A DNA stretch of 64,000 nt from a virus, in the IMG/VR virus record IMGVR_UViG_3300030109_003951, positions 22,601 to 86,600 of that record, one strand, 5' to 3'. Shown here one piece after another: positions 6,414 through 48,151 of the stretch. Numbering within the stretch: the stretch's first letter is position 1; each line of letters starts with the position of its first letter. The notes beneath the pieces are model-generated. The model did not search any database, was not told the DNA's origin, and saw nothing but the letters and a program-made list of their open reading frames with translations. The position numbers and the translations under genes are program-made.

Positions 6414-8171
6414 ATGGTAACGAATAGTGAAGTATGGATGGGGTCTGGTGCATCAGTAACATTAGTCCCAGAGAGTGATTTATTTTTAGGATTTAAAGAT
6501 GGTGCATTTAGCAGTTCAACCACGTCCACAGATAAAACTAGAGGACAATATGAAATTGATTTAGCCAACCTTAAATCTCAATTTAATAACAGTGGAGATG
6601 CATTTACTGATAAATATTTGTTAACAGATAGTGTCTATAGCGGTTGTATTGCTGATTTTATTAAAGATGATGGAACTCTCGTACACAGTAGAGTTATTTC
6701 TGGTAACAGTTATAATAAACTTTATTTCAATGAAGAATACCATAGTGGAACTGGTGATAATACTTATATCATTATAAGAAAGTTTGGTGCGCCAGTTTTC
6801 GGCCCTAAAACAAATGATGCTGGTGGTCAAGCCCAACCTACATTGCTCGCAGATAATTGGTTAGGAATAGTAAACACTATTACTTTCCCTAATCCATCAG
6901 TAGAAGTATTACAAAAGAATCTTGCTCTTGGAGGAAGTAGAAATTTTACTCTTCAATTCAAGGGATTGGAAAATGCCGAAGGTGGAACTTTTGAAGTTAG
7001 TGCTAATCAAGGAACATGGTTGTATTATGCGTTAGGTAAATGTACTAATATAAATGCTACATTTACAGATGTTGATAATTATACTGATATGTTCACTACC
7101 ACAACTACCACTGGATTTTACTTAGATGATGGTTCTACTGGAAATAATTCTGGGATGTTAGAACAAGGCCCATTCTTTTACCGAAGCGTTGTTAATGTTT
7201 CATGTCCACCACCAATACCTTCTGATTTAGGGATAACTGCGGAAGCACATGTAGCAAGTGCAACCGCAACTTTAGAAAAGTTAACACATTCAACTGTTGG
7301 GGCAGATGGTGAAATAGATGATGCAATCACCTATACTTTTGGAGAAGCCAATGGTAGCGATTTACCTTCCTTCACATTAGAACATGTAATCAACAAAGGT
7401 TCACCTACACAATCAATGTTATCAGACGGTACAAATAAAAATTATTCTACTACTGCCAATGATGGAGAATCAAAAACATTAACAGTGAGTGATGAAGTTT
7501 TTACAAGAATAGCAACAGGTAATACAGTCAACACTTTAACTTTAATGGCTAATGAAGGTGAAGAACTTAAAATGAGCATGGATTTAATGACAAAGCAAAT
7601 TATAAAACCACAAGGTAATGATACATCTTCTGTCGCTGCGGCTTATTTGGCAAGAAGAGGAGTAACAGATGATAGAAGTTTAATCAACTTCGGTTCTGGT
7701 GCTGGAGGGGCAAATGCTAGTGTAGAAGAGTTCCTAAAACCATTCTTTTTCCATGATGGTAGTTTAAGTATATTTGGCCAACAATTTTTGAAAATATCAA
7801 ACTTTACATTAACAATAAATAATAACTTACAGGAAAAAAGATTTGTTGGTAATTACAAGAAAGGCTCAAAATCAATTTTACCAGCACAAAGAATGTATGA
7901 GATTACATTAAGTGGTTTAGTTACAGATTCATTATTGTTTGACCAATTATTGAATGATGCAGAAAATCCAAGTACAAGCGCACAAATGATTGAGTTAACA
8001 TTTACTAAAGAAAATGGTGAAAACATTACATTGAAATTTACAGATTATTTTGTTAGTGTGGCTAACTTCCCAATACCAGAAGATAACAGTCCTTTCATTG
8101 TAGATGCTACAATTATGCCAAGAACTTTGAATACATGTACAGTGAAAACACACTGGGTATTACAAGGGTGA
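6414..8171 (+). CDS. major tail tube protein
   Basis: A 585-residue, beta-rich, Asn/Thr/Gly-rich protein. The C-terminal part contains ISNFTLTINNNLQEKRFVG and ends with an ITLSG...IELTFTKENGENI...FPIPED pattern. This resembles tail tube subunits with a beta-barrel and inner loop. Following genes are the tail assembly chaperone and tape measure, which is the classical order. It is larger than usual and may carry an extra surface domain in its N-terminal 250 residues. Confidence 0.7.
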   Translation: MVTNSEVWMGSGASVTLVPESDLFLGFKDGAFSSSTTSTDKTRGQYEIDLANLKSQFNNSGDAFTDKYLLTDSVYSGCIADFIKDDGTLVHSRVISGNSYNKLYFNEEYHSGTGDNTYIIIRKFGAPVFGPKTNDAGGQAQPTLLADNWLGIVNTITFPNPSVEVLQKNLALGGSRNFTLQFKGLENAEGGTFEVSANQGTWLYYALGKCTNINATFTDVDNYTDMFTTTTTTGFYLDDGSTGNNSGMLEQGPFFYRSVVNVSCPPPIPSDLGITAEAHVASATATLEKLTHSTVGADGEIDDAITYTFGEANGSDLPSFTLEHVINKGSPTQSMLSDGTNKNYSTTANDGESKTLTVSDEVFTRIATGNTVNTLTLMANEGEELKMSMDLMTKQIIKPQGNDTSSVAAAYLARRGVTDDRSLINFGSGAGGANASVEEFLKPFFFHDGSLSIFGQQFLKISNFTLTINNNLQEKRFVGNYKKGSKSILPAQRMYEITLSGLVTDSLLFDQLLNDAENPSTSAQMIELTFTKENGENITLKFTDYFVSVANFPIPEDNSPFIVDATIMPRTLNTCTVKTHWVLQG

Positions 8172-31284: not shown

Positions 31285-31451
31285 TATAATTCCTCCTTCC
31301 ATTCTTCAATTACTTGTTCTATTTTTGAAATTAAATTAATTATTTTTTTTTGATTGTTTGTTAAGACATTTACTTGTCCCTGTAAAGATTCTATTTTAAT
31401 TTGCATTCTAGTTACTTTTTTATCATCTCTAACTTCTTTCTTCCAAAACAT
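31284..31451 (-). CDS. 55-residue coiled-coil protein
   Basis: A frame from the ATG at 31451 to a TAA that overlaps the nuclease start as TAATG. The product is an almost uninterrupted helix with heptad leucine and isoleucine (IESLQGQVNVLTNNQKKI). It contains the ribosome binding site of the nuclease near its end. Function unknown. Confidence 0.5.
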   Translation of the reverse strand: MFWKKEVRDDKKVTRMQIKIESLQGQVNVLTNNQKKIINLISKIEQVIEEWKEEL

Positions 31452-32254
31452 CAAAACCAATCCTCCAATGTTTTTTGTTTAGGGTCAGCATAAATATGAT
31501 ACATATCCCAACCCATTGCTTTGTATATAGGTTCGGCTTTGTTTATACAGTAACCTGCGTAATATTCGTAATCTATTTCTATTTTACCTTCATCTAATAA
31601 AGGTAATAATTCATTTTTTTCTTTGACTGAAATATAAGTAGCAACTCTAGAAGTCCCATCATTTAATGGGATTGTCTTAGGGCCAGATAATATGTTACAT
31701 TTGATTGTGATAAAAGAATCAGTTATGGGGTCGGACGAGTTCAAGTGTGTGTTATAATAAACTGCACCAGCAACTCCACCCGCTAATGTTGCATAATCAT
31801 TAATAGATTTCCTAAGCCTTGACCTCTTAAGAAAACTATCCATTTCTATTTTACCTTTCTTAATATTTTGATATGCTTGTTTTAAATACTTAGTAACTTC
31901 TTTTTCAGTTTTACCATTAGCCCACATTTTTAAAACCATCTCTTGTATAATTTTTGCAATGTGTATTTCAGTAGATTTCTTTACTGCAAATCCTGTAACT
32001 ACAAATTCTGGTTCATCTAAATGTTCACCATCTTTCCAAGATATAAAACCAGCATTACGGTTTTTAGTAATACCTATACCGAGAGAAGAATAAAACTTTT
32101 CAAACTCTAAAGTTACAGGGTGTTGGTCTAACCCAAGTATATTAGGAAATATTTCCCTAACCTGTTGATTAAGATAATTACACGTATCTTTAGCATGGTC
32201 TATCGACTCAACAGGACAAAACAAAGAATCAGTATGAGCGTATATTACTTTCAT
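31451..32254 (-). CDS. polB: family B DNA polymerase, C-terminal part (motif C, thumb, PIP box)
   Basis: A 267-residue protein beginning VIYAHTDSLF within its first ten residues. This is motif C of family B polymerases, with His at the first Asp of the usual DTD and the catalytic second Asp kept. The rest is thumb-like. It ends in QKTLEDWF, a canonical PCNA-interacting peptide. The N-terminal two-thirds of the enzyme is encoded at 32713-34353, two small genes upstream. The two chains must associate to make an active polymerase. ATG overlaps the preceding stop as ATGA, with GGAG upstream. Confidence 0.85.
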   Translation of the reverse strand: MKVIYAHTDSLFCPVESIDHAKDTCNYLNQQVREIFPNILGLDQHPVTLEFEKFYSSLGIGITKNRNAGFISWKDGEHLDEPEFVVTGFAVKKSTEIHIAKIIQEMVLKMWANGKTEKEVTKYLKQAYQNIKKGKIEMDSFLKRSRLRKSINDYATLAGGVAGAVYYNTHLNSSDPITDSFITIKCNILSGPKTIPLNDGTSRVATYISVKEKNELLPLLDEGKIEIDYEYYAGYCINKAEPIYKAMGWDMYHIYADPKQKTLEDWF

Positions 32255-32496
32255 AAATTCAACTCCTTCCAGCATTTTTTATGATATTTTCTAGATGCCC
32301 AATCCTTGTGTGGTGCGCCTCCTCTACGGGCGAAACCAATGGGTTGTAATGCCCCACGACAATGTAAACAATAACCATGTGGAACCCACTCATAATCACA
32401 TTCTACACACACAACTAATCCCTTACCTTTTATTACTGTTTTATAAGCCTCAGTTCCTTTACATCTTCTACATATGTGTGTGGCCTCGTCACTCAT
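32251..32496 (-). CDS. multi-cysteine zinc protein inside the split polymerase locus
   Basis: An 81-residue protein with CRRC, CVEC and CLHC pairs and a terminal KYHKKCWKEL, enough for two zinc sites. ATG at 32496 overlaps the preceding stop. The C-terminal CxxC...HKKCW pattern resembles the small protein at 47411-47581. It lies between the two halves of the polymerase. Possibly a DNA-binding or polymerase accessory factor. Confidence 0.6.
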   Translation of the reverse strand: MSDEATHICRRCKGTEAYKTVIKGKGLVVCVECDYEWVPHGYCLHCRGALQPIGFARRGGAPHKDWASRKYHKKCWKELNL

Positions 32497-32713
32497 CCCA
32501 AACCCTCCATCTTGCAGGATAATCATATTTATTTAATCTGACAAATTCTTTGTGTCTTTTTAGAATGTTACTCAATCCTTGAATTGTAGGGCATGTCCTA
32601 AAATGCCTATCAACATAAATATCATAAATTTCTCTGGTGGTCATTTCACCATCACCTAATATATTTATTGCTTGTTGAATAATTCTCTGATATTTATTTT
32701 TTGCACTGGGCAT
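32489..32713 (-). CDS. winged-helix protein inside the split polymerase locus
   Basis: A 74-residue protein with EMTTREIYDIYVDRHF followed by PTIQGLSNILKRHKEF and a terminal ARWRVW strand. This reads as a compact winged-helix DNA-binding domain. Its start overlaps the stop of the polymerase N-terminal gene. It is similar in layout to the proteins at 28626-28862 and 51957-52289. Confidence 0.6.
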   Translation of the reverse strand: MPSAKNKYQRIIQQAINILGDGEMTTREIYDIYVDRHFRTCPTIQGLSNILKRHKEFVRLNKYDYPARWRVWDE

Positions 32714-34353
32714 TATAATCCCTCCGCAACTTTAGCAGCATGTCTGATTGCTTCTCTAGCACTAGCAGTGATGCTGTTCGCTAAATCTGGGTCATACCAA
32801 CCAAACTTAGGAAACGCAGTTACCCCATAGAAACTCGCCATGAGTCTCTTTACAGCCATTTGATTGTTAAACCATTTTTGATGTTCTTCCTTAGTGTCTG
32901 CTTTTTTCATTTTAGACTTGTATTCATCTCTAAGTTGTTTAAGATTAAGAACAGACCTTGGTAATAAACCAAGTTTGTCTGTTTTGTAATATCGCATGTT
33001 CTTTTTAATTACAGGGCTAAAGTCCTGTGGTGTTGCCAAATTACAAGCAAACTCTGTAGGTGTGCGAGACTTAGTTTCCCAACTAATATTCCTAGCCATC
33101 ATCATAGAAGGATATAGTTGTGCAAAATCAAAAGCCGCAACATTACTATGCCTACCATGCGTTTTGTTTACTTCTGGGTCAAATATCATGGCCCCAGTAA
33201 CTTCTACTCTCTCAGCATCTTTATTACCTGTCGGCACTTTCCAATCAGCATGTCTCATGAAGTAAATGCCTCCCATGTGAGAAGCATAAAAACACGCACT
33301 AAATGGTGCAACTAGTAATCTTTGTAATGCTAATATAGATTCTGATATTGCATTATCTTCATCTATGCGTTTTAGTAAAGCAACATCTTGAATATTATAA
33401 TCTAAATAATTTTGAGTATCTTCTAACCAAGCCCTTCTAAAGAATTCGTTTTTGTCTGTGAATTTAGAATCTTTCTTTTTACCTTCCCCGAATAAAAGAT
33501 TACCAACAAAATCTAAAGCAGTAGATGGAAGTGTGCCACGTTGAGCATCGTTCCATTGTCTTTCAAATGCATGGTCTAAGTTTAAACACAATCTACCATA
33601 GATAGGTTGAGATATAGGTGATATTTGATTCCATGCCTTTTTGTTGGGTTTGACCAACCCTATAGGAGATAGTCTACTAATATCAATATTATTTTCTTCT
33701 AACCTTTCAAACAACTTAGGAATATCTGCTTGTAATCCAAACCATGCAATCAACATGTCTGGGTCTTGTTCTTCCATATCAGAAACGAAAGCCTCAAGCA
33801 TATCTTCTTCTGAATTAAAATGATATTCCGCAGCATCGACTACAATCATATCTAGTTTAGCATCTTTGGGAGTCCAATAGTATAAGTTTATGCAATCTGC
33901 ATAATTATCGTAAACTGCAATAGTTGTTATCGCCCCATCATATTTACCTGTGTTCATCCATTCCATATCCCAATACCACTTACGTAAATCATACTCTGGT
34001 ATTTCAGTCATTTTATCAATACAATAACGATGTGTAAAATTAACATCTGCTTCATACGTTTTGTCAAAGTATTTTCTAGCGGTTCTAATATCATTATATT
34101 TAGTAACCATAACTTTAGTCAAAGGTTGGTTTTCCAAATTAACATGGCTAGTTCTTTCATAAATAAACTCTTGAGGTAGTTTCATCTTTCTACCTTGAGA
34201 ATTAGTAACACTGATGTTATATGCTTGCGGCATTCTTTCGTCAGAACCAACATAAAAATACGGTCTAAAATCAGTGACTTCTTTTTCTAATCTATTACCA
34301 TTTTCATCACGCCATCTAAGATAAATAGTGTTATCTTTATGTGTGATAATCAT
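32713..34353 (-). CDS. polB: family B DNA polymerase, N-terminal part (exonuclease, motifs A and B)
   Basis: About 546 residues from the ATG at 34353; a TTG at 34362 is possible. Exonuclease motif I is WYWDMEW near residue 130. Motif II is degenerate (WFGLQADIP, Asp kept, Asn lost). Motif III is YNIQDVALL. Polymerase motif A is DFAQLYPSMM and motif B is KRLMASFYGVT, with Ala where Asn is usual. The chain stops at KVAEGL, just before motif C, which is encoded separately at 31451-32254. The break point is like that of the two-gene PolB of Methanothermobacter. No intein residues are visible at the edges. Confidence 0.9.
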   Translation of the reverse strand: MIITHKDNTIYLRWRDENGNRLEKEVTDFRPYFYVGSDERMPQAYNISVTNSQGRKMKLPQEFIYERTSHVNLENQPLTKVMVTKYNDIRTARKYFDKTYEADVNFTHRYCIDKMTEIPEYDLRKWYWDMEWMNTGKYDGAITTIAVYDNYADCINLYYWTPKDAKLDMIVVDAAEYHFNSEEDMLEAFVSDMEEQDPDMLIAWFGLQADIPKLFERLEENNIDISRLSPIGLVKPNKKAWNQISPISQPIYGRLCLNLDHAFERQWNDAQRGTLPSTALDFVGNLLFGEGKKKDSKFTDKNEFFRRAWLEDTQNYLDYNIQDVALLKRIDEDNAISESILALQRLLVAPFSACFYASHMGGIYFMRHADWKVPTGNKDAERVEVTGAMIFDPEVNKTHGRHSNVAAFDFAQLYPSMMMARNISWETKSRTPTEFACNLATPQDFSPVIKKNMRYYKTDKLGLLPRSVLNLKQLRDEYKSKMKKADTKEEHQKWFNNQMAVKRLMASFYGVTAFPKFGWYDPDLANSITASAREAIRHAAKVAEGL

Positions 34354-34358
34354 GTGTC

Positions 34359-35114
34359 TCAACTCATGTACGGTGCTACAACAATAGCAGCGAAATCTGT
34401 GCTTGCAAATAACGGCATGTCATCATGTAATCTCAAATTGATTCTATTATTCCATTCGTTTTCACTTTGAAATAAAACATGAATAGGTGCTGCAAAAGGA
34501 ACAGTAGCAGCATTACCACTATGTTCTCTCATTTGTAATTCGTTAGATATTTTTCTTTGGCCTTTAGATGCCTGTAAATATAGTCTTTCATTGGGGTGAA
34601 AGTTCAAAACATAATTAGATGCTCCCACTGTGTCACAAGCCTTAATAGATTGAGTTAAACTATCGACATCTAAATTTACTGTTAAGTCATATTTAGTTGA
34701 ACCGAATGTAAAGTCTGGCCCAAAACCCTCATCAATCCAATTAATCAACTTAGGGCTAAACCTATCAATAGCCGATTCATTTTCATGATGTGCAACTAAA
34801 GGAACTGTTGCAGAATCACTATCTTGTAATATTGTCAAAACACTACCAACCTCAAACTCAACTTCTCCAGAAAAGGTTTTCAACATCGGTAATATTTCTA
34901 AATCTAAAACAAACTGAACATCTTCTGCGTTGTCTAAAACTATCTTATATGCTACAGCGACAGAGTTTGCCCTATTAGCACTAAGTAAATATAAATTGTT
35001 ATCTTCAATTTTACAAGTTATTTGAGAAGACAACTCACCATTTTTATCGCCCCATTTACCTTTCATGGTACAATACTTGATTCCCTTTAGAAAACTATCC
35101 ATGTTTATTATCAT
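34359..35114 (-). CDS. sliding clamp (PCNA-like)
   Basis: A 251-residue protein with GGAGGGG upstream of the ATG at 35114. Length and the alternating strand pattern fit a PCNA monomer. Visible features include FLKGIKYCTMKG at the N terminus and LRLHDDMPLFASTDFAAIVVAPYM at the C terminus, the position of the conserved last strands. It would tether the polymerase and other PIP-box proteins of this virus to DNA. It lies directly upstream of the polymerase gene. Confidence 0.75.
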   Translation of the reverse strand: MIINMDSFLKGIKYCTMKGKWGDKNGELSSQITCKIEDNNLYLLSANRANSVAVAYKIVLDNAEDVQFVLDLEILPMLKTFSGEVEFEVGSVLTILQDSDSATVPLVAHHENESAIDRFSPKLINWIDEGFGPDFTFGSTKYDLTVNLDVDSLTQSIKACDTVGASNYVLNFHPNERLYLQASKGQRKISNELQMREHSGNAATVPFAAPIHVLFQSENEWNNRINLRLHDDMPLFASTDFAAIVVAPYMS

Positions 35115-43499: not shown

Positions 43500-43852
43500 A
43501 AAGTATCACCGCCTACTTCTATTGTTCTAACTAAAGGTATAACACAAAAAACATCTGTGTCTCTTACACATTTTAAACCTTGAACGTCAATTGCATTTCT
43601 AGGACTAAAATAACATTCTGCCCCAATAAAGGGATTTTCTGTTGAACCCTGTATGAACACTTCCTCTGGTGGAGTTTTCCACATCTCACCATTTTCATGC
43701 AAGGCCGTCATTATACCTTCTGCTATGTCTTTCACGAAACAACAATCTGCACCATAAGAAACTATTTTCCCACGATTGCCTTCTTCTACGAGAATGCCAC
43801 TTTCTTCTTGTTGTTCTACTTCTATCAATACCCATTTACCTACTGCTTTCAT
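43493..43852 (-). CDS. groES: co-chaperonin (GroES-like)
   Basis: A 119-residue protein. MKAVGKWVLIEVE, GILVEEGNRGKIVSYG and a C-terminal CVIPLVR strand resemble GroES strands. The middle region (residues about 50-85) may hold an extended mobile loop with ALHENGEMWKTPPEEVFIQG. It is about 20 residues longer than GroES. Adjacent position before GroEL supports the assignment. It would cap the viral chaperonin. Confidence 0.75.
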   Translation of the reverse strand: MKAVGKWVLIEVEQQEESGILVEEGNRGKIVSYGADCCFVKDIAEGIMTALHENGEMWKTPPEEVFIQGSTENPFIGAECYFSPRNAIDVQGLKCVRDTDVFCVIPLVRTIEVGGDTLC

Positions 43853-43964
43853 TTTTATCTCTCCTTTTTTCTAAACATTCTTGACTACAATATATTCTGC
43901 CATTTGTGTCTGGGACTCTTTCTTCCCCCCACAATATAGGATGGCGACACTCAAAACATTTCAT
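43836..43964 (-). CDS. 42-residue zinc-finger protein
   Basis: A frame from the ATG at 43964 with MKCFECRHPILWGEE then RIYCSQECLEKRR. A CxxC and a CxxxC pair suggest a treble-clef zinc finger. It overlaps the GroES start by 17 bases. Probably translated, since similar small zinc proteins fill other gaps in this operon. Confidence 0.55.
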   Translation of the reverse strand: MKCFECRHPILWGEERVPDTNGRIYCSQECLEKRRDKNESSR

Positions 43965-44185
43965 TCTCCAGTGTCCTCCAGTGGGATGATGCCAATCACC
44001 CCATCTTCTTTAAGAGAATGATACATTCTAGCCGCAACGATGAATGCCTCTCCTGCATTTTTTGTCCAGAAGGTAGTTCTAGAAAATTCATCACTTGCCC
44101 AATCGACTTGATGGTTTTCTACTTCATCAACAGTGGCCACTGCTATTTTCCAATGACCATCTACCTTCTTAACAAAGATGAACAT
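43961..44185 (-). CDS. uncharacterised protein beside JAMM protease
   Basis: A 74-residue alpha/beta protein from the ATG at 44185, overlapping the JAMM stop as TAATG. FIFVKKVDGHWKIAVATVDEV is followed by AGEAFIVAARMYHSL and IIPLED. It is not a clear ubiquitin-like fold, since it lacks the Gly-Gly end. Coupling to the JAMM gene makes it a candidate substrate or partner. Confidence 0.5.
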   Translation of the reverse strand: MFIFVKKVDGHWKIAVATVDEVENHQVDWASDEFSRTTFWTKNAGEAFIVAARMYHSLKEDGVIGIIPLEDTGE

Positions 44186-44715
44186 TATTCTTCCTCCCAA
44201 ACACCTGCTACAGTTGCCCCTTTATTAATTGGAACAAAAATTTCAAAGTGGGTATCGGTTTTTCCTTTAATCCAAGTCATCCGTTCTGCCCCACCTAATA
44301 CAATCGCTGAATCCATAATTGGCTCATAGGTATTGATTGTATTCCAATCCGTTCCACTAAAGTAAGCCTTACCAAATGGGTGAGTGTGAATCCAACATTT
44401 GATGGGCATTTTCATACCAGTAACTTCTTCATTATCGTGGAACCAAACAAATGAGCCAGTCCCGAAAGTAATGAATAATTTATTATTGCTGTCTATTACT
44501 ACTTGCACTTCTCTGTCACAATCAAATGCAGTTTTACTCATGTGCCATATAGAATCTAAAACATCTTGACCCGCTTTAGTATGTCTAAGATAATGAGTTA
44601 TTTCTTCTCTAAGATATTTATTTACATAACCCCAATCTAAGAATCGTTGCCATGCACTTTCTATTTCTTGTTTCCATTCTTGGTTAACTACCGTGTCTTC
44701 TAAATTCAAAACCAC
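44185..44715 (-). CDS. JAMM/MPN+ metalloprotease
   Basis: A 176-residue protein. The JAMM signature is complete: His110-Thr-His112-Pro, then Ser120-x2-Asp123 (HTHPFGKAYFSGTDW). An upstream Glu is available for catalysis. These zinc enzymes remove ubiquitin-like proteins from targets or trim their C termini. The E1-like gene lies directly upstream and overlaps it. The ubiquitin-like gene is 3 kb upstream in the same block and ends GGY, so trimming of that Tyr is a natural substrate. TTG at 44709 is an alternative start. Confidence 0.85.
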   Translation of the reverse strand: MVLNLEDTVVNQEWKQEIESAWQRFLDWGYVNKYLREEITHYLRHTKAGQDVLDSIWHMSKTAFDCDREVQVVIDSNNKLFITFGTGSFVWFHDNEEVTGMKMPIKCWIHTHPFGKAYFSGTDWNTINTYEPIMDSAIVLGGAERMTWIKGKTDTHFEIFVPINKGATVAGVWEEE

Positions 44716-45257
44716 ACCACCATTTCATTGTCAACGTGGTCTTTACTAAACCACCGTTGAATCCACTGTGCGCCTAATCCAGCCACAACATAATGCATGC
44801 AGTTGATTCCTTTTGCTTTGCCATCCCAATCATTTCCTTGACAAGAAAAGTTACCATCTGGCCCTGCCAACAATTCATCGTATTTTTCAACTGGTGTTTT
44901 ATATGAGACAAGAATACTTCCTCTACCCTGTGCCCTTAAATCTAACCAAGGTTTATCATAACCATACAACAATCTTCTTGCTGTTAAATTATCAACACAA
45001 CACACAATCAAATCATATCCTTTGAGTTGACTTTTGGTTAATACAGCAAAAGGTTCACCTTTTACTTTGTTATACTTGGCCATTACATTTGCCTTTTTCA
45101 TTCCTACTTCACCTATCTTAAAGTTTTGATATGTGATATTTTTTTCTTCTACTGTGTCTGGGTCATATACTGTAATATCATATGTTCCTATCTTACTAAG
45201 AATAGGAATCAAGTTACTACCGATACCACCTGCACCAATTATCATTACCTTCTTCAT
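44706..45257 (-). CDS. E1/ThiF-like adenylating enzyme
   Basis: A 183-residue protein, short for the family. The Rossmann loop GAGGIGSN lies at residues 8-15. DPDTVEEKNITYQNF at 32-46 matches DxDxVexsNLnRQ, but the conserved Arg is Tyr43. Then come VGMKKANVMAKY and VDNLTARRLL (Asp89-Asn90, Arg94). Candidate catalytic cysteines are Cys139 and Cys153. It would adenylate the C-terminal Gly of a ubiquitin-like protein. Coupled to the JAMM gene by overlap. It could serve sulfur transfer or protein conjugation; the sequence does not decide. Confidence 0.82.
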   Translation of the reverse strand: MKKVMIIGAGGIGSNLIPILSKIGTYDITVYDPDTVEEKNITYQNFKIGEVGMKKANVMAKYNKVKGEPFAVLTKSQLKGYDLIVCCVDNLTARRLLYGYDKPWLDLRAQGRGSILVSYKTPVEKYDELLAGPDGNFSCQGNDWDGKAKGINCMHYVVAGLGAQWIQRWFSKDHVDNEMVVWF

Positions 45258-45258
45258 T

Positions 45259-46140
45259 TTACCATGCTCCTTCTATTAATTGTTCTATTGTTATTTTTTC
45301 TACCATTTGCTTATTTAATCTGATTGCGTTTAATATATCACTGTAACCATAAGATACAGTTGCTTTACTTTTGTTGTTCTTCAATGCCATAGCCAGTGAT
45401 TCCATTGAAACTTTATTTCTACCAGTTTCCCCTCTTATTTGTAGAGTTAACCATATAACTCCTGCCATGAATCTTTTTCTTTTAGTATCTAGTAAGTCAC
45501 CTAAGTTATTTGCTAATGCATAGTAAACCCTTCTAACATCGTTAGCGAAAGCAAAAGATAAATCTAATTCGTGCCTAACTTTATCTATATCTGCCTCTGG
45601 GTTATATTGATATAAAACATGTGATTTACCGAAATGGTTCGCAACCTTTTTGGCCATGCGAATAATTCTCTTTTTGGGGACTTCTGTTATCTTAGAGAGG
45701 GTGCCCACATCTACTCGTATGTTGTTATCCTTTAACGTAAAGTAAGATAATCCTGCACATCTTTCTATGATTGAGTTTCCACGAAATACATGATTTTTTT
45801 GTAGACTATTATAATTTGTTTTAAATTCTAATCTTATGTCTGGGCTACTAGTGAACTCACTTAGAATCATCCAACCTTCATTGATTGCATCGAAGTTTCT
45901 ATTTTTACGATAATTAATAACTGCTCTATTACCCACAAAAGTTCTATTGTTGTTTGACTGGTCTGAGCCTAATCCATAATATTCGTCTTTATTGTGCATT
46001 ACTTCCCCATCATATGTAATCGCCATTACAGTTTCTTCAAGGTTTTCTACTTGGATATAACCACATACATCACAAACCCATTCACCAAGTCTGTCATCAA
46101 AGGTCATCCCTGCATACTTACATTCTTCACAACTTCGCAT
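45259..46140 (-). CDS. tfb: transcription initiation factor TFB (TFIIB-like)
   Basis: A 293-residue protein from the ATG at 46140. The N-terminal zinc ribbon is CEECKYAGMTFDDRLGEW then CDVCGY. A B-reader-like segment follows. Two cyclin-like repeats can be traced: residues about 110-190 (IIERCAGLSYFTLKDNNIRV, PKKRIIRMAKKVANHFG) and 190-290 (FMAGVIWLTLQIRGE). TFB recruits RNA polymerase to TATA-bound TBP. No viral TBP is visible, so it would use the host's. A viral TFB could select the repeated promoters in the 56-63.5 kb region. Confidence 0.85.
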   Translation of the reverse strand: MRSCEECKYAGMTFDDRLGEWVCDVCGYIQVENLEETVMAITYDGEVMHNKDEYYGLGSDQSNNNRTFVGNRAVINYRKNRNFDAINEGWMILSEFTSSPDIRLEFKTNYNSLQKNHVFRGNSIIERCAGLSYFTLKDNNIRVDVGTLSKITEVPKKRIIRMAKKVANHFGKSHVLYQYNPEADIDKVRHELDLSFAFANDVRRVYYALANNLGDLLDTKRKRFMAGVIWLTLQIRGETGRNKVSMESLAMALKNNKSKATVSYGYSDILNAIRLNKQMVEKITIEQLIEGAW

Positions 46141-47411
46141 TACTCTTCCTCCCATACATTTTCATAAGAATCAAAATCTTCTATCATCAACGGTGTCCTA
46201 CCAGATAACTTATTATCCATAGTGCTAATTATTTTTCTAGATTCTGAATCGTTCAAACATAACATAGCCCTAGCATAAACTTGGTCGCCTATAGAACTGC
46301 CACCCATTAGATTATCAATACAAACATTTACACCCCCATACTTAGAATAAAAATTATCATTTAATTTTTTTGTTCTGAGGGCTTCGGGGCTTTCTGGATT
46401 TTGAAGATGTGTAATCATAACAGTAGATACATCTTGTAAGTTACCTTCGTTCTTATTTTTTATTTCACCGAATATAAACCAATACGCTTCCTTTCCTTTT
46501 ACAATTACTTTAAGTTGGGAGCCATGTCTTCTAACTCTAATGTCATCAAACTTCTCTAAACTTCTAACCAACTCTAGGGATTTGTCCACGACAATTTTAT
46601 CTTTCCTGTTGTGTAATAAAAATTGAATCATTGTATTAAGTTGTGATTCTGAGGGATAGTCACCTATTGTATATTTCCAAAGATAGTTTGGGCTTATACC
46701 CCACCACTTACTTCTTCTGTTTTTTCTTTCACCATTGTAAATTTTGATAAAGGCCAACATATCTTTTTCTGACATTTCGCCCCATACATTATCACTTATT
46801 TCCAAAGCATATCTTTTACTGGATATTTTTTGAACATTAAGGAGAACCTTTTCTCTCCTGTGATAAGGTCTTGTTTCGTAAATGTCTTCTAAGGTTTCCA
46901 TGTCCAAACCAACTATTTTTTTAACATAGGTTACGTGATTAAAATAATATTCTATTCTCTCTTCAATTGCTCTTTTGATTAAATTTGGCGTTTCCATATA
47001 CTTATTGAAAAACAAATAAACATCACTACTATCTCTTTTAGAAGTGCCAGCGTACATTGCTGTTTTAGCAATAGTAACCAAAGCATCTTTCTTAGTCATA
47101 ATTTTGCCCATGAGTTTGAATCGACAATCATCCTTTTGTAAAACAAAGGGAAATCCATTGATGTAAAAAGTAACAACATAAGATACAGGGGCATTTGAAT
47201 ACCAATCACCATTAGGTAAATTTTTTTCCAACACCGTACAAAAGTTTTCAATCAAAGGGTCAACTTTAGAATATCTATCCACACTAGTTTCCCAACGGGA
47301 TTCTCTCATGTGACCTTGATACTTTAAACCGTTTCTCTCATCATCGTGTGGATAAGAGTTTACTTCATTGGTTTGTATCTGTATATCTATTTCTACTCCT
47401 CTTACTTCCAT
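46140..47411 (-). CDS. large uncharacterised protein between TFB and Ubl genes
   Basis: A 423-residue alpha/beta protein. It overlaps TFB by one base and starts with TAATG over the upstream gene. There is no membrane segment or recognised catalytic motif. The C terminus is acidic (DSYENVWEEE). It sits inside the block that carries the ubiquitin-like set, so a role as ligase or target is open. Not a recognisable E2 or E3. Confidence 0.5.
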   Translation of the reverse strand: MEVRGVEIDIQIQTNEVNSYPHDDERNGLKYQGHMRESRWETSVDRYSKVDPLIENFCTVLEKNLPNGDWYSNAPVSYVVTFYINGFPFVLQKDDCRFKLMGKIMTKKDALVTIAKTAMYAGTSKRDSSDVYLFFNKYMETPNLIKRAIEERIEYYFNHVTYVKKIVGLDMETLEDIYETRPYHRREKVLLNVQKISSKRYALEISDNVWGEMSEKDMLAFIKIYNGERKNRRSKWWGISPNYLWKYTIGDYPSESQLNTMIQFLLHNRKDKIVVDKSLELVRSLEKFDDIRVRRHGSQLKVIVKGKEAYWFIFGEIKNKNEGNLQDVSTVMITHLQNPESPEALRTKKLNDNFYSKYGGVNVCIDNLMGGSSIGDQVYARAMLCLNDSESRKIISTMDNKLSGRTPLMIEDFDSYENVWEEE

Positions 47412-47581
47412 TATTTAGCACCATATGTTTTCGATTTGTAATTCTTTAAACACTTATCATGGAATCCTTTTCTTGCCTCTAAAGGATGCGTTAACTGTCC
47501 CCCGCATATCCTACATTTAGTTGCAATAACCTTGTCTGTTGAGCGTCTGCTCGTAACATACTCTGGGTCAAAGTCATCCAT
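47411..47581 (-). CDS. 56-residue zinc-knuckle protein
   Basis: ATG at 47581, with AAAGGTGA upstream. CRICGGQLTHPLEARKGFHDKCLKNY gives a CxxC...H...C zinc site like the C-terminal part of the protein at 32251-32496. Its stop overlaps the following gene. Function unknown, probably nucleic-acid-binding. Confidence 0.55.
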   Translation of the reverse strand: MDDFDPEYVTSRRSTDKVIATKCRICGGQLTHPLEARKGFHDKCLKNYKSKTYGAK

Positions 47582-47595
47582 AAATATCACCTTTT

Positions 47596-47681
47596 AGGTA
47601 GGAAGAGAGCAAGACACGCACCGACAGAATTAACGTCACGACAAGACTGAAACATCTCTCTATTACTGTGTCAACCTACCT
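47596..47681 (-). ncRNA. inverted-repeat-bounded intergenic element, possible structured RNA
   Basis: AGGTAGG at 47596-47602 is the exact reverse complement of CCTACCT at 47675-47681. Inside, AGAGAG and CTCTCT can extend the stem. The 86-base element fills the gap upstream of the zinc-knuckle gene. It lacks a T-loop sequence and so is not a tRNA. A leader structure, processing site or small RNA are all possible. Confidence 0.3.
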
Positions 47682-47694
47682 CAATGTTTTGAGT

Positions 47695-47895
47695 TTAATA
47701 TCCCCCTACTAATGACGGCATCAAGTCAACAGTCTCTACTCCATCCCAATCATAATCTGAAAGGTTTTGTCTGCTGACGATTGTTCCATCAACGCAAACC
47801 CAATGTGTTGGGTAGTCACTGATGTAATCAATTATTTCTTCTGATGTCACCTCAATAGGTGTGTGTCCACTTGCATTTAATATTCTAAGTTGCAT
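47695..47895 (-). CDS. ubiquitin-like (ThiS/MoaD/SAMP-type) beta-grasp protein ending GGY
   Basis: A 66-residue protein with GAGGAGA before the ATG at 47895. The strand-helix-strand order fits a beta-grasp fold: MQLRILNASG, then TPIEVTSEEIIDYISD, then HWVCVDGTIVSRQNL, then VETVDLMPSLVGGY. VDG-x-IVSRQ and a final Pro-x3-Gly-Gly are as in ThiS and MoaD. A single Tyr follows the Gly-Gly, so the protein would need trimming before activation. An E1-like enzyme and a JAMM protease lie about 3 kb downstream in the same block. The viral Ubl could be conjugated to proteins or could carry sulfur. Confidence 0.7.
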   Translation of the reverse strand: MQLRILNASGHTPIEVTSEEIIDYISDYPTHWVCVDGTIVSRQNLSDYDWDGVETVDLMPSLVGGY

Positions 47896-47896
47896 A

Positions 47897-48151
47897 TTAT
47901 ATCTCCTCTGTGTTGTTGGTACTGCCACTAGTATATAAAGTGGAACGTTCATTTAACCTTGAGAATGCTATTCCTAGAGTCTTTTCATAGTGCAGAACTA
48001 ATTTACTTAAGTTCTCAACTTGTGCATTACCCTCTAATACCATCTGTGTTAATTTTTGGTTGTTCTGTACAGCAGTCTCTAATTGCGTAGTAGCAGTTAG
48101 TAACTTCTGGCTCGTCTCTTGTAATTGTTTTTCCATTTCTTTTTTGTTCAT
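47897..48151 (-). CDS. coiled-coil protein
   Basis: An 84-residue protein whose ATG overlaps the HNH stop as ATGA. It is a long helix with heptads (LQETSQKLLTATTQLETAVQ), then a short Ser/Thr-rich tail. It contains the ribosome binding site of the ubiquitin-like gene. It may be a structural or adaptor partner. Family not recognised. Confidence 0.5.
   Translation of the reverse strand: MNKKEMEKQLQETSQKLLTATTQLETAVQNNQKLTQMVLEGNAQVENLSKLVLHYEKTLGIAFSRLNERSTLYTSGSTNNTEEI

Follow-up and report, generated by a model that had tools for sequence, protein, structure and literature searches.

A putative ubiquitin-like modification set encoded by a tailed virus, probably of marine archaea, with homologues in an archaeal order

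The 64,000-nucleotide window analysed here, which is part of an 86.6-kb virus record, carries minus-strand genes for a small ubiquitin-like protein (Ubl), an E1-like activating enzyme and a JAMM metalloprotease (Table 1). The original prediction from this DNA had all three genes on one strand with the E1 and JAMM frames overlapping; open reading frames of the window agree in strand and coordinates, and the overlap is 10 bases. The set sits at 44-48 kb within a replication-side, opposite-strand cluster, apart from the tail tube gene at 6414-8171 (+). We assign the window to what is probably a tailed virus of marine archaea. Numerous contigs of marine origin share the Ubl, E1 and JAMM genes and probably represent magroviruses, which are viruses of Poseidoniales.

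Table 1. Features of the locus and the evidence on which each assignment rests
Feature	Position	Strand	Basis
Ubl, beta-grasp modifier precursor, 66 aa, ends PSLVGG-Y	47695..47895	(-)	AF2 model, Foldseek, GG invariance
Terminal Tyr codon after Gly-Gly, predicted removed	47698..47700	(-)	Tail length 0-9 in relatives
423-aa protein with one invariant Cys (C364, ..GPICIDN..GDQ..R..ND..T)	46140..47411	(-)	Co-inheritance; candidate fourth component
298-aa TFIIB-like protein (zinc-ribbon/HTH), immediately upstream of E1	45259..46155	(-)	NCBIfam TFIIB 1.1e-4, below cut-off
E1-like activating enzyme (ThiF/MoeB superfamily), 183 aa	44706..45257	(-)	Pfam ThiF, PDB profile matches, invariant columns
JAMM/MPN+ metalloprotease, 176 aa; E69, H110, H112, S120, D123	44185..44715	(-)	AMSH-LP profile match, motif

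The view that the 66-residue protein is a beta-grasp protein ending in GGY was borne out by structure prediction and conservation. Its AlphaFold (AF2) model (pLDDT 83.8) has the element order b-b-a-b-b-b, and Foldseek returned ubiquitin as the top matches (best E 1.3e-3, prob 1.00), with MoaD and ThiS also matched. The C-terminal Gly-Gly is kept in all 80 distinct Ubls, as [ILV][IVL]GG. A variable tail of 1-9 residues follows it in 65/80, most often of two residues (47/80), and in the other 15 the Gly-Gly is the end of the protein. Judged from the alignment, an invariant Gly-Gly with a variable tail is the pattern of a processed modifier precursor. An 85-aa version of the reading frame (47695-47952) was rejected as a wrong start, because the 66-aa version has its ATG right behind the stop codon of the preceding gene and relatives align from its residue 1 onward. 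Among 74 viral Ubl bodies, 68 have no lysine after residue 5, where the lysine frequency of the E1 would predict this for about 2%, so marks of a single Ubl would be more likely than chains. Sulfur carriers may likewise be lysine-poor, and low lysine therefore does not separate conjugation from sulfur chemistry. Searches of Pfam, PHROGs, NCBIfam and PDB sequences placed the Ubl in no accepted family, and its similarity to ThiS and SAMP families stayed below curated cut-offs. Matches to PinA (Pfam Inhibitor_I24) in 15/59 members (best 1.4e-4) were scattered and weak, and we judged them to be at chance level.

Assignment of the second gene to the E1 enzymes on the basis of GAGGIGSN and VDN..R held up, with a Pfam ThiF match of 1.3e-17 that exceeds the curated cut-off. 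The protein has the features of the E1/ThiF superfamily, namely GxGGxG, the Asp/Lys/Asp residues of the ATP site and a ThiF domain, and its profile matches Cap2, UBA5, MoeB and ThiF in the PDB. Scores against equivalog models for ThiF (46.7 of 275 bits) and MoeB (21.1 of 377 bits) fall below cut-off. Invariant residues comprise GxGGIGS, D32, D34, K39, N40, Y43, K55, D89, R94, D106, R108 and S138-C139-Q140; the nucleotide-binding and Asp/Lys signature and S-C-Q are kept in 37/37 phage and virus E1s. Because the S-C-Q falls in the range of positions where E1s carry their catalytic cysteine, Cys139 may bind the Ubl in a thioester. Loss of the usual Arg, also noted at the outset, is general: Tyr43 replaces the Arg of the (N/S)LxRQ motif in all 37, and the host E1s inspected here have His at this position (..NLGHQ../..LVHQ..).

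The protease, predicted from HTHP...S..D, contains the complete JAMM motif (E69...H110-T-H112-x7-S120-x2-D123). Among 47 relatives, the two His, the Ser and the Asp are kept in every one and E69 in 45. Its match to Pfam Prok-JAB is sub-threshold (0.0045), and in the PDB its profile comes closest to AMSH-family deubiquitinases (AMSH-LP, 4e-4). The proposal that this enzyme both matures and recycles the Ubl was supported insofar as it presumes a processed C terminus. Maturation as the sole job was ruled out, because magroviruses always keep the JAMM gene although 15/80 Ubls already end at Gly-Gly.

Counting only distinct relatives with sufficient flanking DNA, the Ubl gene accompanies the E1 gene in 73/73 and the JAMM gene does so in 92/92, and in most of the viruses the three are separate genes several kb apart. 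All three are under purifying selection (dN/dS 0.09-0.15, window versus nearest relative). A beta-grasp fold, Gly-Gly conservation and co-occurrence were the points on which the original prediction had staked itself beforehand, and it survived on each. Collectively, the fold, the invariant catalytic residues, the co-occurrence and the host homologues described below support its core, a Ubl with a processed C terminus encoded together with its own E1 and JAMM enzymes. The trio stands, but the conserved set is wider than three genes: genes for the 423-aa and TFIIB-like proteins lie immediately upstream of the E1 gene in all magrovirus loci with sequence there, and in many relatives the TFIIB-like frame runs 4-19 bases past the E1 start.

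The 423-aa protein is possibly a transfer factor. Its Cys364 is kept in 60/60 sequences, and its C-terminal motif recurs (hhalign 1e-4 to 1e-3) both in proteins beside Ubl/E1/JAMM genes of other phages and in a domain attached C-terminally to a host Ubl. Over residues 270-404, its AF2 model has the order a-bbbb-Cys364-a-a. A UBC/E2 fold received no support from Pfam or Foldseek and no clear support from hhalign. Foldseek against the PDB gave E values of 0.065 at best, in a low-scoring list that includes 6gvw_C, 4nf9 and 8ppr_K, which we take to contain E2-like UEV or RWD folds. Alignment to UBE2D2 by hhalign scored E 0.013 against 0.039 for the best shuffle and set Cys364 opposite the catalytic Cys. 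As this score is too near the best shuffle and the Foldseek scores are low, we do not claim E2 identity.

Homologues of the three proteins were found in one archaeal order, which probably contains the hosts of these viruses. Of 116 genomes, 54 have the Ubl gene, 55 the E1 gene and 55 the JAMM gene; all three are present in 48 (about 40%) and none in 56, with Fisher p of 4e-20 to 5e-28 for the association. The Ubls of this order constitute an overlooked ubiquitin-like family outside Pfam coverage. They often form tandem arrays of two to four with Gly-Gly at each junction, and one polypeptide reads Ubl-GG-Ubl-GG-E1 with an overlapping JAMM gene. Some Ubls are fused to E1 and some E1s to JAMM. 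Release of single Ubls from such arrays calls for a protease; HvJAMM1 of Haloferax is known to cleave a linear Ubl fusion precisely behind the final Gly (PMC4443979). One host Ubl homologue matches the ThiS model at 1.3e-6, and the C terminus of a host tri-Ubl resembles SAMP1 (0.0023). A canonical E2 (PF00179) occurs in only 1/116 genomes. Mapped onto an RpoB tree, the host system is found in nearly all members of one clade and only here and there in the other, with at least 11 changes. Incompleteness of metagenome-assembled genomes accounts for part of this patchiness. Housekeeping genes surround the host genes at the loci examined. In the E1 tree, viral and host sequences split into two clades (SH-aLRT 99 and 97), and recent capture of the viral E1 from a host was rejected on that basis.

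From the fold, catalytic signatures, Gly-Gly conservation, co-inheritance and host homologues computed here, we infer, with somewhat better than even confidence, a self-contained and reversible Ubl-modification system encoded by a tailed virus of marine Poseidoniales that is probably a magrovirus. The Ubl would be synthesised with a few variable residues behind its Gly-Gly, a single Tyr in the window, and the JAMM enzyme would trim them off to expose the Gly-Gly. The E1 would then adenylate the Gly-Gly, perhaps holding the Ubl on Cys139, and pass it to target proteins either directly or with the help of the 423-aa protein through Cys364. Stripping of the Ubl from its targets by the JAMM enzyme would reverse conjugation. 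During infection, the likeliest targets are proteins of the host or the virus. Counting against this reading are Tyr43 in place of Arg, a cassette in which no E2 is recognisable, the rarity of canonical E2 in the host order, a 423-aa protein that searches did not confirm as E2-like, and sub-cut-off Ubl similarity to ThiS and SAMP families. A bolder version, which we entertain only tentatively, gives magroviruses a complete conjugation pathway, in which the 423-aa protein would act through Cys364 as the pathway's own transfer enzyme and belong to an unrecognised E2-type family. This pathway would be sister to the polyubiquitin-like system of Poseidoniales, with two diverged codes opposed in one cell.

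The same proteins could instead act mainly on the host's Ubl system, with the JAMM enzyme stripping host Ubl from viral proteins and the viral Ubl and E1 out-competing their host counterparts, as counter-defence or subversion. A homologous trio in the presumed host order, distributed patchily as defence genes are, fits such a role, as do the interference of bacterial Ubl systems with phage particles and the many deSAMPylases of archaeal Borg elements (PMC12660748). The separate E1 clades argue against recent capture for mimicry, pure removal would not need the Ubl and E1 that the virus retains, and the housekeeping surroundings of the host genes and the share of genome incompleteness in their patchiness also weigh against it. 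We regard this role as unlikely. Sulfur chemistry is a less probable alternative, in which the E1 would turn the Ubl into a thiocarboxylate for tRNA thiolation or a cofactor and the JAMM enzyme would only mature the precursor. It draws on ThiS and MoaD as Foldseek neighbours, the ThiS match of a host homologue, the likeness of the E1 to ThiF/MoeB and the description of Ubl, E1 and JAB operons tied to sulfur metabolism (Iyer 2006, PMC1779556). Against it, the same paper notes that JAB genes never occur in thiamine and molybdenum-cofactor operons, and JAMM is kept even where the Ubl already ends at Gly-Gly. Rhodanese (PF00581), the sulfur-donor partner looked for, also has 0 matches in the 86.6-kb record, although the record may be a fragment and a host enzyme could serve.

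Very improbable, in our estimate, is an E1 rendered catalytically dead by Tyr43, with a Ubl acting non-covalently as scaffold or inhibitor beside an unrelated JAMM protease. The uniform replacement of Arg and the several-kb spacing of the genes in most viruses are compatible with it. All other catalytic positions, the Gly-Gly and the S-C-Q are nonetheless invariant, and in the host homologues Ubl-E1 and E1-JAMM fusions occur.

Sets of E1, Ubl and JAMM are known in archaea and bacteria, and parts of such sets in phages. Within the literature searched, no report of a viral trio was found, and magrovirus papers outside that search may carry 'ThiF'-type annotation. Here all close relatives for which sufficient sequence exists have the full trio, across an apparently abundant group of ocean viruses. 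Polyubiquitin-type tandem arrays have until now been associated mainly with eukaryotes, and the related archaeal genomes contain tandem Ubl arrays built like polyubiquitin genes. Conjugation, if true, would offer a virus-host pair in which to study archaeal ubiquitin-like signalling and its viral use or subversion, along with a compact chemistry that is E2-less or employs a new E2.

Several known systems resemble the set in part. The PRTRC cassette (Iyer type 6d: ParB, Ubl protein C, E2-like B, JAB protein A and ThiF) is likewise a set on mobile DNA in which Ubl, JAB and E1 accompany further conserved proteins, and the window E1 has its best NCBIfam match in PRTRC_ThiF (3.1e-14). Membership was rejected on cut-offs (52.9 of 144.75 bits); the window Ubl, JAMM and 423-aa proteins match none of PRTRC C, A and B, and hhalign did not relate the 423-aa protein to PRTRC_B or F. 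Bil, CBASS Cap2/Cap3 and 6A-MBL share the E1 plus JAMM logic and weak E1 similarity, but these are host defences whereas the window set is viral. We saw no E2 domain in its E1 and no CD-NTase or metallo-beta-lactamase partner. The E2-E1 fusion of type II CBASS is absent, the 183-aa enzyme matching PADLOC E1-E2 models over their E1 portion alone. Compared with Bil, Ubl, E1 and JAMM are present and an E2 is not recognisable; PADLOC 2.0.0, which may lack Bil, gave no Bil match.

Among mobile elements, crAss-like phages (Steigviridae) are tailed and carry an E1 (26-31% identical) adjoining a JAB-motif gene, but their proteins are larger, the JAB is of HSHN type and the E1s form a separate branch; no homologous Ubl was detected in them. 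Phage-encoded Ubl plus JAB has been known since Iyer 2006 (PMC1779556) from lambdoid TAPI/TAPK tail assembly (Ubl and JAB-NlpC). That cluster has no described E1, and a lambdoid-type tail role was rejected on location, the window genes lying on the opposite strand from the tail tube gene and outside the tail module. Borg archaeal elements are extrachromosomal and bear Ubl-pathway genes, including deSAMPylases and one SAMP; in the portions of PMC12660748 that treat them, it is the proteases that have proliferated, the E1 discussed belongs to the host and there is no mention of a Ubl-E1-JAMM set. Haloferax sampylation (SAMP/UbaA/HvJAMM1) has the same composition, an E2-less set consisting of a Gly-Gly-ending beta-grasp Ubl, one E1 and a JAMM enzyme. 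The window Ubl and E1 score far below the curated cut-offs of SAMP and UbaA models (E1 versus NF047750, 30.6 bits, cut-off 450), and the window JAMM does not match desampylase model NF041370, which an outgroup phage JAMM matches at 2e-8, below cut-off. Unlike the Haloferax system, the window set is viral, has a short E1 with Tyr for Arg and a tailed Ubl precursor, and is linked to genes for the 423-aa and TFB-like proteins.

The original prediction of a viral ubiquitin-like modification set was borne out in its gene content. All three genes, encoding a ubiquitin-like protein (Ubl), an E1-like enzyme and a JAMM protease, lie on the minus strand where predicted. The start codon of the Ubl is the ATG at 47895; it immediately follows the upstream gene's stop codon, and the alignment of Ubl relatives begins at the same residue. 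The E1 matched Pfam ThiF above cut-off (1.3e-17), and its profile matched Cap2, UBA5, MoeB and ThiF in PDB. The JAMM scored under the Pfam cut-off (0.0045) but has a complete E...HxHx7SxxD signature, and a profile of 47 relatives retrieved AMSH-like deubiquitinases first (4e-4). The proposed beta-grasp fold of the Ubl agrees with an AlphaFold2 model from 59 sequences (pLDDT 83.8; element order b-b-a-b-b-b). In a Foldseek search of PDB with this model, ubiquitins were the best matches (E 1.3e-3, probability 1.00), MoaD and ThiS were also listed, and the top of the list was mostly ubiquitin-like beta-grasp proteins; the modest E-values are expected for a protein of only 66 residues. Because no Pfam family covers the Ubl, its family is undescribed in the libraries searched.

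Related contigs were gathered by scanning IMG/VR with E1 and Ubl alignments. Among magrovirus-type loci (99 distinct E1s), the Ubl was present in 73/73 with at least 8 kb upstream of the E1 and the JAMM in 92/92 with at least 2.5 kb downstream. Co-occurrence of the three genes is complete in loci with that much flank. The C-terminal GG, also expected to be conserved, occurs as [ILV][IVL]GG in all 80 distinct Ubls, followed by a tail of varied sequence with 0 (n=15), 1 (n=14), 2 (n=47) or 3–9 (n=4) residues. Invariant GG with a short variable tail is the pattern of a ubiquitin-type precursor. Lysine is lacking past residue 5 in 68 of 74 Ubl bodies, where about 2% would be expected from the lysine frequency of the E1. 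Invariant E1 residues (37/37) are GxGGIGS, D32, D34, K39, N40, Y43, K55, D89, R94, D106, R108 and S138-C139-Q140. Between the window and its nearest relative, dN/dS is 0.09–0.15 for Ubl, E1 and JAMM.

The window, bases 22601-86600 of an 86.6-kb virus record, carries a structural half on the plus strand, whose tail tube gave matches to Pfam Phage_tube_2 and to the haloarchaeal viruses HCTV-5, HVTV-1 and HHTV-2, and a replication half on the minus strand, with clamp-loader ATPase, ATP-dependent ligase, split family-B polymerase and Cpn60 chaperonin adjoined by a small co-chaperonin-like ORF. This content matches the ICTV traits of Magrovirales, an order of tailed viruses that infect marine Poseidoniales (PMC10768690; PMC12999244). 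Since the collections searched hold no named member of that order, we infer membership from gene content. Magrovirus-type E1 and JAMM genes also occur on three MAG contigs labelled Maricaulis or Altibacter (L093, L094, L095), which look like mis-binned virus contigs.

Features of the viral and probable host loci
Feature	Position	Remark
Ubl	47695-47895	window, minus strand
E1	44706-45257	window, minus strand
JAMM	44185-44715	window, minus strand
423-aa protein	46140-47411	window, minus strand
TFIIB-like protein	45259-46155	window, minus strand
Split family-B DNA polymerase (two ORFs)	31451-32275 and 32713-34362	window; like ICTV magrovirus description
Small conserved zinc-finger proteins (CxxC...HxxxC types)	47411-47590 and 43836-43964	window, around cassette; the former in 97 loci
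Host Ubl joined via GG to 285-aa domain with invariant-Cys motif of viral 423-aa protein	L233:4759-5841	
Tandem Ubl arrays, GG-joined	L214 (4 repeats), L212 (3), L209 (3), L207 (2)	genomes of the presumed Poseidoniales order
Host fusions Ubl-Ubl-E1	L232:5539-6780, L235:5789-7063	
Host fusions E1-JAMM	L239:5643-6932, L250:3629-4861, L251:6196-7404	
Host Ubl with GG lost	L203:1492-1710	

The two genes immediately upstream of the E1, which encode a TFIIB-like zinc-ribbon protein and a protein of 423 aa, are retained in all magrovirus loci that include that stretch; the small zinc-finger proteins around the cassette are possible adaptors. A single cysteine, C364, is invariant in the 423-aa family (60/60). 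By hhalign (1e-4 to 1e-3; shuffles 0.04 or worse), the C-terminal motif of this family is shared with large proteins adjoining the Ubl/E1/JAMM genes of phages L064, L065 and L066, and with a domain that directly follows a host Ubl in a fusion protein. The predicted structure near C364 runs helix, four strands, Cys, helices, the order found in E2 enzymes. Because Foldseek, Pfam and hhalign gave no confirmation of this identity, we offer a putative E2 role as a hypothesis.

An E1-JAMM pair of the viral type was found on a marine euryarchaeal MAG contig (L108). Among 116 genomes of its order, which probably includes the virus hosts and is presumably Poseidoniales on grounds that include the marine MAG and virus biology, Ubl was present in 54, JAMM in 55, E1 in 55, all three in 48 and none in 56; across the phylum, Ubl occurred in 28/243 genomes, all within the 116. 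Host Ubls are single or come in tandem arrays of 2, 3 or 4 units, in which each junction carries GG and the last unit ends in a short tail (GGRAC, GGMC or GGMASEVC), a polyubiquitin-like arrangement. Two of the arrays examined adjoin a small zinc-ribbon gene resembling RNA polymerase subunit P. Elsewhere Ubl-GG-Ubl-GG-E1 forms a single polypeptide followed by an overlapping JAMM gene, or E1 is fused to JAMM. A linked protease would be a natural means to release tandem units; Haloferax HvJAMM1 cleaves a linear Ubl fusion exactly after the last Gly (PMC4443979). A host tri-Ubl scored under cut-off with the ThiS (1.3e-6) and SAMP1 (0.0023) models. A few host Ubls end in IVAGRA, IVAGRV or IVFG (L203, L271, L220), with E1 and JAMM present. 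Mapping the host system on an RpoB tree requires at least 11 changes: nearly all genomes of one clade have it, and its distribution in the other clade is patchy. Part of this pattern reflects MAG incompleteness. The E1 tree separates a viral (SH-aLRT 99) from a host clade (97), which rules out recent theft from the host; these sequences point to an old divergence.

The viral set most likely mediates reversible attachment of the Ubl to proteins. JAMM would trim the tail to expose GG, E1 would activate it, possibly through Cys139, and attachment by E1, with or without help from the 423-aa protein, would be reversed by JAMM. The prediction that JAMM may both mature and recycle the Ubl stands as the most likely reading; maturation cannot be its sole task since magrovirus Ubls already ending in GG are still accompanied by JAMM. 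Sulfur transfer instead of conjugation is less likely, because the 86.6-kb record encodes no rhodanese and classic sulfur-carrier operons are without JAB genes (Iyer 2006, PMC1779556). During infection, the set may serve to tag host proteins, tag viral proteins or interfere with the homologous host system.

Related E1s are carried by three other large phage contigs (96–158 kb): Ubl, JAMM and E1 are adjacent in L065; in L064 the E1 is accompanied by a Ubl whose last residues are GG, and no JAMM was found nearby; L066 has JAMM and E1. In crAss-like phages L011 and L012, an E1 annotated as thiamine biosynthesis adjoins a JAB-motif gene, with no Ubl recognized at these genes. Membership in SAMP/UbaA, PRTRC, ThiF/MoeB, CBASS and lambdoid TAPI/TAPK systems was rejected on curated cut-offs or architecture. 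The papers searched contained no report of this viral Ubl/E1/JAMM set; the nearest idea among them is that of Borg elements with deSAMPylases (PMC12660748). The viral set belongs to the broad E1/Ubl/JAMM kind, of which it is a new form.
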